Under the pieces are notes generated by a model. It did not search any database, had not been told where the DNA came from, and saw nothing but the letters and a program-made list of their open reading frames with translations. DNA of 24,305 nt from a virus, in IMG/VR virus record IMGVR_UViG_3300030117_005698, positions 1 through 24,305 of that record. One strand, written 5' to 3'. The translations under genes were made by a program, and so were the position numbers. How positions within the stretch are numbered: position 1 is the stretch's first letter; the number at the start of each line of letters is the position of its first letter. Shown in pieces: positions 4,327 through 14,612 of this stretch.

Positions 4327-4655
4327 AATCCGACCGCTTAGTTACTGCGTGCTGCGAAGCATATGACACTTTCTGGGGCGACCTGCACATGTGCAGACAG
4401 TGCGGTCGACCCAACCCTGAGATGATCGAGGGCTCTATCTGGGAGACTTGGAGACTCGGCGGTAACATTATCGTCAAGGGCTACATCGACCACAACGACA
4501 ACAGCGTTGTCTGGTTCCCCGAAGGCGCGACACTCGACGGGACGGCTGCGCTGGCTATCTTTCCTGACTACGACGAGGATTGGACCTGCCCCACTCTCTG
4601 GGCTGAGTGTGCGACACTTGAACAGGCCGACAAGATTATGAGGGATGAGCCATGA
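4323..4655 (+). CDS. Zinc-binding-like protein (110 aa), unknown
   Basis: The N-terminus carries a cysteine pair (C10, C11) and a CRQC pair near residues 24-27, a likely zinc ribbon. The rest is a mixed alpha/beta region rich in Trp with three further cysteines. GGAGGAAG precedes the ATG, which overlaps the upstream stop (ATGA), and the gene overlaps the next by 4 bases. I do not recognise the family. Confidence 0.6.
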   Translation: MKSDRLVTACCEAYDTFWGDLHMCRQCGRPNPEMIEGSIWETWRLGGNIIVKGYIDHNDNSVVWFPEGATLDGTAALAIFPDYDEDWTCPTLWAECATLEQADKIMRDEP

Positions 4656-5158
4656 CAACCGAATACATAGTACACAGCAGCAGCTACCTGACGGTCACGG
4701 GACTGGTCAAGTGGGCGCTCAACAGCGACGACACGTCTCTGACGCAGGACAGTCGAAACAAAGCAGCGAAGCTGCTCAAGCTGGCCAGCACCATACCGAG
4801 TCTGCCCGCGGGGGTTCTTGTGGAGATGGTCGAGGGCTCCGCGGATATTCGGTACTACCCGAACTCAGACTGGCAGCAAGATAGAATCGAAGTAGTTTCG
4901 GAATCAACTATGCACGAAGACGAAGTCGACGGTCCTGTGTTCCAGGCAGAAGAGCAGGAACTCGACGCGCTACGACTCCCGAAACGAATCGCCAACCTGT
5001 TGACCAACGCAGGGATTCGGTCTGTCGAGCAGCTACTTCGACACAGTAAAGAAGATCTACTGGAGATACCAAGACTCGGACCTGGCGCTGTAGAACTGAT
5101 TCGTTTGGCACTGGCTGAGACTTGGGGCGCAGACCTACGTAAGTCTCGGAGGAAGTGA
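4652..5158 (+). CDS. Protein with C-terminal RNAP alpha-CTD-like domain
   Basis: A 168-residue protein. Residues about 104-157 match the C-terminal domain of the RNA polymerase alpha subunit: LDALRLPKRIANLLTNAGI, then SVEQLLRHSKEDLLEIPRLG and a closing helix. Against the E. coli DNA-binding determinant, the equivalents of R265, N268 and G296 are kept (R112, N115, G143), while those of K298 and S299 are Gly and Ala. Residues 1-100 are not recognised and end in an acidic linker, as if a separate domain is tethered to the CTD. A role in steering host RNA polymerase or binding UP-like DNA is inferred; a plain helix-hairpin-helix DNA-binding role is the alternative. It is coupled to its neighbours in the + operon (4-base overlap upstream). 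Confidence 0.75.
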   Translation: MTTEYIVHSSSYLTVTGLVKWALNSDDTSLTQDSRNKAAKLLKLASTIPSLPAGVLVEMVEGSADIRYYPNSDWQQDRIEVVSESTMHEDEVDGPVFQAEEQELDALRLPKRIANLLTNAGIRSVEQLLRHSKEDLLEIPRLGPGAVELIRLALAETWGADLRKSRRK

Positions 5159-5159
5159 C

Positions 5160-5888
5160 ATGCGTATCGGTGAACTGTTTGCAGGTATCGGTGGTCTGGG
5201 TCTCGGGCTCGAGACTGCCCAAGTCGGTCATGTCGTGTGGCAGGTCGAACAAGACGAATACGCGAGCAAGGTGCTCGCAAAGCATTGGCCCCGAGCCAAG
5301 AGGTATACAAATGTCGAAGACGTCGGAGCCCACAACCTCGAGCCTGTTGACCTACTCTGCGGCGGGTTCCCCTGCCAAGACCTGTCCATCTCCAACCAGA
5401 AAGGACAAGGACTGGAAGGTCAGCGAAGCGGATTGTGGTTTGAGTTTGAGCGAATCGCCAACGAACTCAGACCCGAATGGATCGTCATCGAAAACGTCCA
5501 ACACACATGGAAGCGGTGGGTGCCCGTCGTGCGGCGCCGACTCCACGCCATCGGGTATGCCAGCGTGCCACTTCGACTGTCAGCCGCTGACGTGGGAGCG
5601 TGGCATCGAAGGAGACGAGTTTTCATACTTGCCCACGCCGACAGCGAGCAGCTACGGCAGTTGTCGCGGAGGTGGACAGGGACGCACGGGCAAATGGAGA
5701 AAGAGTCTATCGGGCCGATTCGGTGGACCCCACGCACCGAACCACCGCGAGTGGATGATGGGGTTCCCCATCGGGTGGACCGAAATCGATGTCTTGGAAA
5801 CGCGGTAGTACCTCAGTGCAGCTACTTCATTGGCAACTTAATCAAACAACTAAACCCAACTGTAAAGGAGAATCAACATGTCCAATAA
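5160..5888 (+). CDS. dcm: Cytosine-C5 DNA methyltransferase
   Basis: This 242-residue enzyme transfers a methyl group from S-adenosylmethionine to C5 of cytosine in DNA. Visible motifs are I (FAGIGG, 7-12), IV with the catalytic Cys (GGFPCQ, 68-73, C72), VI (ENV, 111-113), VIII (HRRRR, 149-153) and X (GNAVVP, 213-218). The stretch between VIII and X, where target recognition lies, is only about 60 residues, so it is a compact phage-type enzyme and the target site cannot be predicted. GGAGGAAG precedes the ATG. The gene probably protects phage DNA from host restriction together with the adenine methyltransferase at 17289. Oddity: the +1 frame over most of its length encodes another recognisable phage ORF. 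Confidence 0.92.
   Translation: MRIGELFAGIGGLGLGLETAQVGHVVWQVEQDEYASKVLAKHWPRAKRYTNVEDVGAHNLEPVDLLCGGFPCQDLSISNQKGQGLEGQRSGLWFEFERIANELRPEWIVIENVQHTWKRWVPVVRRRLHAIGYASVPLRLSAADVGAWHRRRRVFILAHADSEQLRQLSRRWTGTHGQMEKESIGPIRWTPRTEPPRVDDGVPHRVDRNRCLGNAVVPQCSYFIGNLIKQLNPTVKENQHVQ
5311..5808 (+). CDS. ORF nested in the methyltransferase gene, phage 'SPAKT' family
   Basis: The +1 frame of the methyltransferase gene is open from 5155 and, from the ATG at 5311, encodes 165 residues. It resembles phage proteins often annotated as DNA-methylase-like: SLLTYSAAGSPAKT (11-24), then SDPNGSSSKTSNT (53-65), SYLPTPTASSYGS (105-117), and REWMMGFPIGWTE (136-148). The last two match the 'LPTPTA-SYGS' and 'EWLMGFPIGWT' signatures I remember from stand-alone phage genes. 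The same DNA in frame 1 encodes genuine methyltransferase motifs IV to X. No ribosome site precedes 5311, and expression is unproven. It could be an overprinted gene, or the reading-frame shadow from which the stand-alone family arose by misannotation. Confidence 0.4.
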   Translation: MSKTSEPTTSSLLTYSAAGSPAKTCPSPTRKDKDWKVSEADCGLSLSESPTNSDPNGSSSKTSNTHGSGGCPSCGADSTPSGMPACHFDCQPLTWERGIEGDEFSYLPTPTASSYGSCRGGGQGRTGKWRKSLSGRFGGPHAPNHREWMMGFPIGWTEIDVLETR

Positions 5889-11370: not shown

Positions 11371-11796
11371 CTAAAAAACAACAGCTGACCAACCTTTCCA
11401 GTTGTCTTCGTTTGTGTCTTCCAAAGCAGTGATTTGTTTAAAGCGTCGTGTCTCGGGGCACCAACCAAACACATGTTTGTGTTCTTCGAGGAATCCTTTG
11501 ACGATCGAGGCCGTGGCGCGTCCCACTACTGGCTGTTCGCTTTCGACATCCATAGGTACTACAACTCCATGAAACATGGGTGTGCCGTCATAGTTACAAC
11601 CATGGGGTACATCATGGCACCATGCCTTCCAGCCTCCAAGAGCTGAGGCTCGAGATTGGAAATCGTCTCGACCGGGTACAACCTCCACCACCCAGTCAGG
11701 TAGGTTTAGTTGGTCGAGCAAAGTCTGGGACCACGAATCGATATCAGACACATCATCTTGACGGCTGTGCGCCAAGAACCATCGAGCTACATACAT
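11371..11796 (-). CDS. Unknown protein (141 aa)
   Basis: A 141-residue Trp-rich acidic protein that I do not recognise. The ATG overlaps the stop of the polymerase gene by one base, so it is translated with it. Segments DWVVEVVPGRDDFQSRA and PMFHGVVVPMDVESEQPVVG suggest an alpha/beta fold. Its place between the polymerase and the SMC-like ATPase suggests a replication accessory protein, by position only. Confidence 0.6.
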   Translation of the reverse strand: MYVARWFLAHSRQDDVSDIDSWSQTLLDQLNLPDWVVEVVPGRDDFQSRASALGGWKAWCHDVPHGCNYDGTPMFHGVVVPMDVESEQPVVGRATASIVKGFLEEHKHVFGWCPETRRFKQITALEDTNEDNWKGWSAVVF

Positions 11797-14555
11797 TAGA
11801 CTTCCTTTAAGTTTTTGCCGATGTCGGCTTCAGACGTGAGCACTACTTCCCATCCAGGCACAGTCAGAGTCATGCACTCTTCTACTTGCTGCCGCCACTT
11901 CTCCAACTGCTCTTCGCCTTCGTTGGGGACTTCGATGCAGATACTGTCGTGGCATTGGTGGATGAGACCTGTTCCTGGGCCAGCAAACCCAAACGGGAAC
12001 GCAGTGATAATTTCTTGTTCTGCCAATCGCATGAGTGAACTTTCAGCGGCCAGCACAGGGAAGTTGACGACTTCATTTTTCTTTCCATCAGACAAACTTC
12101 CAGATCGCCGACCCAGGACAGGTTCTTCCATATACCCTTGTTCTCTGTATATTTCGAGCATTCGAGTCCAGGCGTCCATCCATTCAGGTTCTGCTTCTAA
12201 CCATTGTTGGTGAAAATGTCGGACTTCTCTGGGCTCGATATCCAGGTACGGAAGTTTGCCGTCGTTTGTCTCTGTTGAGGTCAGAACTTGCCAAACTGTG
12301 CTGGGGTCTGCCCAGTAGATAGATGCGTAGCGAAACGTCTTCATGACATCCCGCATGGCCTTGGCTTGTCCGCCTATTGGTTTCTTGAGAAGGCTAAACC
12401 CATCTGGTCCCCAGCCGTCGGCATGTTTGAACTTGCTGCCAAAGATGTCATAGGCCAGTAGATTGTGTGGGTCTTTGTTCTCTACAAAGCATTCAAGCAG
12501 ACGCGGTATCTGCCAGAAACTTGCAGTGATTCGTAGGTGAGCTTGGTCTAAGTCAGCCCCGATGTAGGCTCGACCTGGTGGTGCGGCGAAGATACTCTTG
12601 AGCCTGCCTTGTCCTTTTCGGTTTCCGATGTTCTGTAGATTCGGGCCACTGGAGCTCAATCGACCGACACTGGTAGTGTGGGCGTTCCAGTTGCTGCGGA
12701 CACGACCGTCTTGCCATACCAGACCTTTCTTGGGGTCGACGTCTCTTCTCTGCATAGGCAAGAGGACTGTGCCGAGTATCTTGTTCTTTTCTCGACGGTA
12801 TAGACGTAGTTCATAGATGAAGGCTTTCTGCGCTTTCGACAGACCAGGGTTGGACAGATGACCTCGAAGTACAGCATCGCCTGTGCCGGGTAGTCCTGAC
12901 TCGGTAAAAAACTCTCGAGAATCCATGTGTGGTGGGATTGACAGCTTCCATTTGTTGTAGAAGAGATTCCGTATTTGATCTGCCGAGCCTGGGTTGAAGC
13001 CGTCATCGTTGACTGACTTCATGTCCAGTTTCTTCAAACCGATGTCTCGTGCCATCTCATCCAGCTTCTTTCGTCTCTTGTCGATACTGTTGGTGTATTC
13101 AATCTCGAGACCCATGCGGATCTTCTGGTCCACCCACACACCGTTGCGGTGCATCTCGAGACACATCTCTTGAGTCTTATGGTCTACCTCGAACAGGTTC
13201 CAAGGTTTATCTTCACCCCACCCACGAGGCTTGAACTCTTGGCTCAAGGGTCGGAAGGCACCTGCGTTTGATGAGGCATCGATGAGCGGTACAACGATTC
13301 TGGCATTGACCACTGAATCAACAATGTTGTAGCGCAACAACTCATCGTCGTCTGTTGCACCGGTTGCAATCTTCACACCTTTCTCGGATGTCTCCCAGCG
13401 CTCTACGTCTGTAAGGATGGATCCGATTGTCTTCAGTCCTTTGGGTAGGTCTGGTGCGCGGAACCGTGTAGGGAAGAGTGTATCCACCAGCGGGGCTGGA
13501 GTGACGCCAAGCCAGCGCTCGATGACTAAGCGGTCGAAGAACCCGGCATTGTGTCCGACCCATACTCGACCATCAGTCATTGCCGTCATGAGTATCTGCT
13601 TGATCGCGTCTTCGTCTTCTGGAGAGTAGAACCGAGTGCTACCGTCTGCTGATAAGATGCTGACACCGACGGCTTGTGAGACGGTTGCGATCTCTGCCCG
13701 TGCAGCTTTGCCCATCTTATCCAGGTCGGGTGTTGCAATCGCAATCGTGCGTAGCTTGCACGACATCGGGTCTTTCCCGTCGGTCTCAACGTCATATGAC
13801 CAGAAAGGGGCTGCCTGGCTCAACCAAGCTACAAGCTCATCGGGTGTGGGTCTCCACAAGATCTCAGGGTCTTGCCATCGAAGTCTGTTCTCGAACCAGC
13901 GAAACCCTTTCGCCAAGTCTGAATGAAGCACGCTGCGCCAACTGGGTGAACGCGCAACAAAAGAAGGGTGAAGCGTTGGCATCACCATATGAGCGCCGCC
14001 GCTGGGTGTTTGACACCATTCTTCGTCTACCCAAACAGGACCGCCTCTGGACGCATGAATCGATGCGCTCGTGCCTGTCAGTGCTTGTGTTGCAGTCTTA
14101 CCGAGAGTGATGATGTGTCGATACTCGGACGCACGATTCAACAACCGCGGACGGCAGCATGTAGCTGGATGCGGGATAGGGTCTTTGCCTTCTTTGCTTC
14201 GTCGTCGATTGATTTTGTCTAACTTCTTTTCCATACGAGCCCACGCGCCGGATGGTTGACCGGGGGGCTTACATAGGATGACGTTTGTTAGATCGATATC
14301 AGGCCGTTTCTTTCCAATAGCAAGCAGGGCATTGCCCCATTCACTGCCTGAACGGCCTATGAGGGGTCGACCTCTCGCGACCTCCTCAAGACCGGGAGAT
14401 TCAACTACAGCTAAGGTTGATGCTCCGTCGTGTATCTCAGGCGGTACGGGTGACCATTCGTCGCTTGCAAGGTCTCCACCTTTCCTGAGTGGGCAAATGT
14501 CACATCGTGCGCCATGATGTTGAGGGTCATAGCGTTTATTGAGAGGTTGCAACAT
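11796..14555 (-). CDS. Fusion of uracil-DNA-glycosylase-like domain, 3'-5' exonuclease and family A DNA polymerase
   Basis: The phage replicative polymerase, 919 residues. The ATG at 14555 has AAGGAG 4 bases upstream; the in-frame ATG at 14591 is worse placed. Residues 1-210 resemble Fe-S (family 4/5) uracil glycosylases: CDIC (C18, C21), C95, C133/C134, a VESPG...GRPLIGRSG segment and HPS (196-198). Residues about 250-430 are a DnaQ-like proofreading exonuclease (D255, E257, N336, D358, D413). The rest is PolA: motif A DLDQAHLR (668-675), motif B R735/K739/Y743, motif C HDS (869-871). Y743 matches the T7 polymerase Tyr rather than E. coli Phe762. Two residues are odd: His replaces the steric-gate Glu of motif A, and Ser the Glu of HDE. 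SPO1-type phages have a comparable fusion. It is part of the - strand replication operon. Confidence 0.93.
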   Translation of the reverse strand: MLQPLNKRYDPQHHGARCDICPLRKGGDLASDEWSPVPPEIHDGASTLAVVESPGLEEVARGRPLIGRSGSEWGNALLAIGKKRPDIDLTNVILCKPPGQPSGAWARMEKKLDKINRRRSKEGKDPIPHPATCCRPRLLNRASEYRHIITLGKTATQALTGTSASIHASRGGPVWVDEEWCQTPSGGAHMVMPTLHPSFVARSPSWRSVLHSDLAKGFRWFENRLRWQDPEILWRPTPDELVAWLSQAAPFWSYDVETDGKDPMSCKLRTIAIATPDLDKMGKAARAEIATVSQAVGVSILSADGSTRFYSPEDEDAIKQILMTAMTDGRVWVGHNAGFFDRLVIERWLGVTPAPLVDTLFPTRFRAPDLPKGLKTIGSILTDVERWETSEKGVKIATGATDDDELLRYNIVDSVVNARIVVPLIDASSNAGAFRPLSQEFKPRGWGEDKPWNLFEVDHKTQEMCLEMHRNGVWVDQKIRMGLEIEYTNSIDKRRKKLDEMARDIGLKKLDMKSVNDDGFNPGSADQIRNLFYNKWKLSIPPHMDSREFFTESGLPGTGDAVLRGHLSNPGLSKAQKAFIYELRLYRREKNKILGTVLLPMQRRDVDPKKGLVWQDGRVRSNWNAHTTSVGRLSSSGPNLQNIGNRKGQGRLKSIFAAPPGRAYIGADLDQAHLRITASFWQIPRLLECFVENKDPHNLLAYDIFGSKFKHADGWGPDGFSLLKKPIGGQAKAMRDVMKTFRYASIYWADPSTVWQVLTSTETNDGKLPYLDIEPREVRHFHQQWLEAEPEWMDAWTRMLEIYREQGYMEEPVLGRRSGSLSDGKKNEVVNFPVLAAESSLMRLAEQEIITAFPFGFAGPGTGLIHQCHDSICIEVPNEGEEQLEKWRQQVEECMTLTVPGWEVVLTSEADIGKNLKEV

Positions 14556-14612
14556 TACACTCCTTAAAGGGTGAGGCATCTGTAAAGCCATGCCTCCCTG
14601 CGCTCCTCAAGA

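Follow-up and report, generated by a model that had tools for sequence, protein, structure and literature searches.

A virus C5-cytosine DNA methyltransferase gene with a probable second chain nested in its +1 frame

One locus of the 24,305-base virus record analysed here at its full length (the window) very probably specifies a C5-cytosine DNA methyltransferase built from two polypeptides, as in M.EcoHK31I, with the gene for one chain (beta) nested out of frame within the gene for the other (alpha). The signs that can be read from the sequence are dual coding, nested start signals, a motif IX that beta has and alpha lacks, and relatives in which one chain holds the parts in canonical order. 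Translation of beta would begin in frame +1 at a start within the alpha message, and beta would supply motif IX and probably the target-recognition segment, with it presumably the seat of specificity. The two chains would assemble into one DNA-methylating enzyme, as M.EcoHK31I does, and its role might be, for example, the shielding of the viral genome from host restriction.

The same record also encodes a DNA polymerase, a primase/helicase and a helicase. Alpha (frame 0; Table 1) matched PF00145 (E 3.7e-37) and TIGR00675 (E 1.9e-31), and the part aligned with HhaI covers residues 13-172 of that enzyme; this domain together with the catalytic PCQ of motif IV places alpha among the C5-cytosine methyltransferases. 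Its motifs I, VI, VIII and X are named after the conventional motif set of such enzymes. The open stretch in frame +1 begins with a GTG at 5155 and has an ATG at 5311 and a stop at 5808, giving an alpha/beta overlap of about 500 nt, and the longer frame +1 ORF from 5155 was matched by phrog_1008 (E 3.5e-11). The first-pass annotation had described two frames open over the same DNA of a C5 methyltransferase gene, the frame +1 signatures SPAKT (5368-5382), LPTPTASSYGS and EWMMGFPIGWTE (within 5734-5784), and 3' bases that read DGVPHRVDR in frame 0 and MGFPIGWTE in frame +1; all of this was found as described, with VDDGVPHRVDR at 5751-5783 in frame 0. It had also assigned motifs IV to X to frame 0, where methyltransferase motifs do lie but motif IX is absent. 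The gene just 5' of the methyltransferase (4652-5158, + strand) encodes a C-terminal domain similar either to the one in RNA polymerase alpha (PF03118, E 1.3e-8) or to a helix-hairpin-helix. On the minus strand, 11796-14591 encodes a single chain of 931 aa that combines a domain of uracil-DNA glycosylase (PF03167, E 1.3e-11) with a DNA polymerase of family A (PF00476, E 1.3e-29).

Table 1. Features of the methyltransferase locus in the window
Feature	Position	Strand	Basis
Ribosome-binding site of alpha, GGAGG	5148-5152	+	read from sequence
Alpha (242 aa), chain of the C5-cytosine methyltransferase with motifs I-VIII and X, without IX	5160-5888	+	PF00145, TIGR00675
Alpha motif I, FAGIGG	5178-5195	+	sequence; conventional motif name
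Likely ribosome-binding site of beta, GAGGT, 6 nt before ATG	5300-5304	+	sequence; start and Shine-Dalgarno enriched in relatives
Beta (165 aa), frame +1 ORF nested in alpha, with motif IX and the probable specificity region	5311-5808	+	ORF, shuffles, constraint, motif-IX profile
Alpha motif IV, GGFPCQD, with catalytic cysteine; SPAKT (5368-5382) in frame +1	5361-5381	+	sequence
Strong synonymous-codon constraint common to relatives	5448-5784	+	70 non-redundant genes, z up to 39
Alpha motif VI, IENV	5487-5498	+	sequence; conventional motif name
Alpha motif VIII region, RRRRVFILA	5607-5633	+	sequence; conventional motif name
Beta LPTPTASSYGS, position of target-recognition segment	5629-5661	+	sequence, relatives
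Beta motif IX, APNHREWMMGFPIGWTE	5734-5784	+	motif-IX profile, sequence
Alpha motif X, LGNAVVP	5793-5813	+	sequence; conventional motif name

The second frame was compared with synonymous-codon shuffles in which the alpha protein and the codon usage were held constant. Among 82 genes (the window, L002 and 80 IMG/VR relatives, near-duplicates included; 200 shuffles), frame +1 was stop-free between motifs IV and X in 52, against a null mean of 3.2 and a maximum of 7, and frame +2 in 1. The breakage of frame +1 in relatives, which had been named as possible counter-evidence, was far rarer in this set than expected, with 38 stops in total against 340. Frame +1 contained WxMGFP in 79 genes (shuffle mean 2.0), PTPT in 62 (4.1) and GxPxGWT in 68 (0.3). 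For the window alone, 5311-5805 was stop-free in 9 of 2000 shuffles; openness by itself is weak evidence, because another gene in the window has a 165-codon open +1 run. Against a beta profile built without the window, the window's frame +1 scored 71.6 bits, and the maximum over 2000 shuffles was 47.7 bits.

Synonymous-site constraint, proposed at first pass as a check, was clearly present in a set of 70 genes (non-redundant at 70% identity; median between pairs 43.8%), for which the sharing of codons where two genes have the same residue was measured against 100 shuffles. In the N-terminal part of alpha, up to about 5448, it stayed near expectation with isolated columns of z up to 6.5; it reached z 17 at 5460 and peaked at z 39 over the VDDGVP segment, i.e. 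over the beta motif. Since the constraint rises past about 5448, the conserved beta core should start between alpha motifs IV and VI, and the region 5311-5448, SPAKT included, is variable among relatives. Altogether, strong selection on the second frame, and with it genuine dual coding, is strongly supported by these comparisons. Overprinting, one of the two possibilities first suggested for this locus, is borne out by stops, motifs other than SPAKT, constraint and start signals, all of which depart from the synonymous shuffles.

The beta block LNPxWVEWLMGFPxGWT has the spacing of C5 motif IX. A motif-IX profile was built from ordinary plasmid methyltransferases, and as a control motif IX was recovered in 9 of 9 ordinary enzymes, each left out in turn (p 0.003). 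When 172 beta/alpha pairs were scored (176 genes minus 4 dropped for length; p<0.05), the profile was significant in 159 beta chains (frame +1) vs 8 alpha chains (frame 0). With 18 beta members scored singly, the best segment was the LNPxWVEWLMGFPxGWT block in all 18, significantly (p<0.05) in 17. In the window, 6 of 1000 shuffles scored as well as beta, whereas 270 of 1000 did so for alpha, in which motif IX was thus not significant by this profile. In three small plasmid-borne enzymes from enterobacteria, motif IX is in frame. By this measure the second frame encodes the motif IX of the same enzyme and no unrelated protein, and the two frames, first read as two separate protein families, are better described as parts of one enzyme. 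The profiles phrog_1008, phrog_26627, phrog_27243, phrog_31772 and phrog_10223 represent the beta protein, phrog_1008 matching 18/18 and phrog_26627 15/18 members of the beta profile A3; all five are labelled 'DNA methyltransferase' or unknown, with the nesting unmentioned.

Relatives in which the parts are fused were found by a scan with an actinobacterial relative as query. In its 80 best loci the motif IX/X part lay in the alpha+1 frame in 59, in frame with alpha in 16 and in the alpha+2 frame in 3, and 2 loci at contig ends had no alpha. Fourteen of the 16 in-frame loci were single ORFs (L343, L344, L345, L346, L347, L348, L349, L355, L356, L361, L370, L398, L399 and L404), 13 of them distinct at 80% identity. 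These 13 carry motifs I-VIII, two to four PTP repeats and motif X in one ORF; the motif IX pattern stands 24-27 residues before X in 12, and L347 has a variant of it. The canonical order of the blocks in the fusions shows the beta blocks to be methyltransferase parts. By its position, beta probably holds the specificity region of the enzyme. The N-terminal beta profile was still matched in frame +1 in all 14 single-chain genes, which the two-chain model did not predict. L115 and L225 have the look of fusions, but contain frame breaks, possibly sequencing errors. In three other loci (L372, L374, L381) the N- and C-terminal beta parts are in different frames several hundred bases apart, perhaps due to insertion. 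Insertions resembling homing endonucleases (labelled by eye) were seen in alpha or in the alpha/beta overlap of L182 (1144-2643, HNH-like) and L155 (2260-3522, LAGLIDADG-like).

Beta starts were surveyed in 176 non-redundant genes (217 in all). In 149 of the 176, frame +1 has an ATG followed by an uninterrupted reading frame (shuffle mean 21), and in 113 such an ATG is preceded by a Shine-Dalgarno match of 4 nt or more, against a null mean of 7.7 and a maximum of 15. The starts fall in two clusters, 17-23 codons before and 17-18 codons after motif IV, and the window's ATG, judged by its position relative to motif IV, belongs to the first. The beta N-termini of L215, L244, L202, L211 and L246 have EQLTLF shortly after the start; it resembles the sliding-clamp-binding pentapeptide, and may be a mere mirror of VDLICGG in alpha.

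These start signals bear on another possible route to beta, in which ribosomes translating alpha would make a programmed +1 frameshift and so produce an alpha-beta fusion chain, in place of internal initiation. Such a fused order does exist in the single-chain relatives, and the step from alpha to beta was always +1 in the main scans. We nevertheless consider frameshifting very improbable. Codon constraint on beta already sets in ahead of alpha motifs V-VIII; a shift downstream of motif VIII leaves this unexplained, and one upstream of it would sacrifice catalytic motifs. In addition, ATG with Shine-Dalgarno is strongly enriched in frame +1.

Structure prediction and profile-profile comparison gave less clear results. 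AlphaFold2 models of beta from the window (27 rows) and from L222 (125 rows) were weak (mean pLDDT 58.9 and 71.9), and with them no structural match for beta, including to the solved small domain of C5 methyltransferases, was obtained in the PDB; beta had no Pfam match. With hhalign, beta was compared to six ordinary enzymes and SETWPRSGMTRGG was aligned against TATFRNAGIMRNG (E 5.6e-5, probability 66). The matched stretch of the ordinary enzymes lies between motifs VIII and IX and is not motif IX. This match was set aside because the beta stretch overlaps alpha V-VIII and the alignment is shallow. The weak beta models, the hhalign result that missed motif IX, the N-terminal beta segment kept in frame +1 by single-chain relatives, and the predicted target-recognition domain (TRD) in the large chain of M.EcoHK31I (PMC3404938) were counted against the two-chain model. 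It is very unlikely that beta is instead an unrelated protein that overprints an already complete methyltransferase and acts independently, for example as a regulator or anti-restriction factor: the failure of weak models and Pfam to give a match and the N-terminal segment kept in frame +1 in 14/14 single-chain genes would suit such a protein, but motif IX is found in beta and is missing from alpha, and the fusions have the canonical order.

There is next to no probability left for the reading that the alternate ORF merely follows from amino-acid conservation and codon bias and that database matches are wrong-frame translations. It does hold for SPAKT: a SPAKT-like motif is in 65/82 genes vs a null mean of 59.5 and maximum of 67, and is uninformative, since GGFPCQD of motif IV nearly forces it and shuffles have it almost as often. 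Long open +1 runs in other window genes also speak for this reading. It is rejected, as far as sequence allows, by the other tests, in which the real genes stood apart from shuffles that preserve both the alpha protein and its codon usage.

The two-chain reading was followed into the distribution of beta. When phages were searched by tblastn with the window beta, no more than 2 records came back, each having a methyltransferase in its other frame; a profile was needed. Loci of profile A3 were classified for the best 80 of 503 viral and the best 80 of 305 genomic ones. The profile overlapped alpha in frame +1 in 141 of these 160; 16 called 'adjacent' proved on reading to be 15 overlapping ORFs and one single-chain gene (L226), and 3 without a methyltransferase were cut by contig ends. 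Profile and ORF reading together kept the alpha/beta pair in 155 of the 160 best loci (156 minus L226). In the 80 best loci of a second beta profile, 79 were alpha+1 and 1 alpha+2. The first-pass suggestion that a stand-alone family descends from the alternate frame was not sustained: no stand-alone beta with room upstream occurred among the 240 best loci fetched with alternate-frame profiles (some contigs shared), and all five loci without a methyltransferase near the match (3 in the A3 scans, 2 in the scan with the actinobacterial relative) were contig-end cuts. Among 11 alpha/beta loci in annotated records, both genes were annotated in 4 (EagleEye, Rani, Catdawg, Lilbooboo), only the beta frame in 2 (SOVA965, Mwe-JY08), only alpha in 4 and neither in 1. 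The 'DNA-cytosine methyltransferase' of SOVA965 is the beta frame, and alpha is unannotated there, which makes it a stand-alone record of the sort the first-pass annotation referred to; 'stand-alone' ORFs in databases can be this frame called alone in the same way.

The small chain of M.EcoHK31I is encoded out of frame inside the large-chain gene, an arrangement reportedly known from 1995, and the window has the same out-of-frame nesting, 5311-5808 lying within 5160-5888 in frame +1. The motif layout of M.EcoHK31I (YGGCCR) is also alike: motif IX is in its small chain, and the large chain has I-VIII and X. Because this partition and nesting are already known, the window is another case of a known kind. 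It differs in that the TRD, predicted in the large chain of M.EcoHK31I, would lie in beta here. M.AquI (CYCGRG) is likewise a split enzyme and has the partition of an actinophage variant (EagleEye, Catdawg, Lilbooboo) in which alpha ends after motif VIII and beta carries IX and X; the window type, unlike M.AquI, keeps motif X in alpha (5793-5813), so its beta is no M.AquI-type small chain with IX and X, and has the overlap of about 500 nt. Genes 50/51 of Paenibacillus phage Rani are similar in that a frame +1 gene lies within a DNA-cytosine methyltransferase gene, with the remark 'g50 Internal gene', but gene 51 is called hypothetical and given no function. In PMC3404938 the large chain of M.EcoHK31I is credited with the predicted TRD besides motifs I-VIII and X, its small chain with motif IX alone, and M.AquI is described as split between I-VIII and IX-X; M.EcoHK31I is called naturally split (PMC3439449). 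No account of this overlap or of its breadth in phages was found in searches of listings and abstract openings of open-licence papers. The two-frame methyltransferase arrangement seems to be known, rarely described and under-recognised in its breadth in phages, where it looks common.

It is possible, though we hold it only tentatively, that the majority of this class of mobile C5 methyltransferases, whether from phages, prophages or some plasmids, consist of two chains with the specificity subunit in a second frame, that the N-terminal beta segment overprinted on V-VIII has a role of its own, as suggested by its being kept in frame +1 in all 14 single-chain fusions, and that PTPTA repeat modules are exchangeable recognition units moving between frames. 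For many methyltransferase genes of phages, the annotation gives a single protein or a lone second-frame fragment. If both chains are needed, the annotated ORF cloned by itself would yield no active enzyme, the wrong chain would be credited with specificity, and several PHROG families would belong to a single enzyme. At this locus two proteins that probably interact are encoded on shared DNA, in a well-conserved arrangement, and the single-chain relatives make the origin of the two-frame locus testable.
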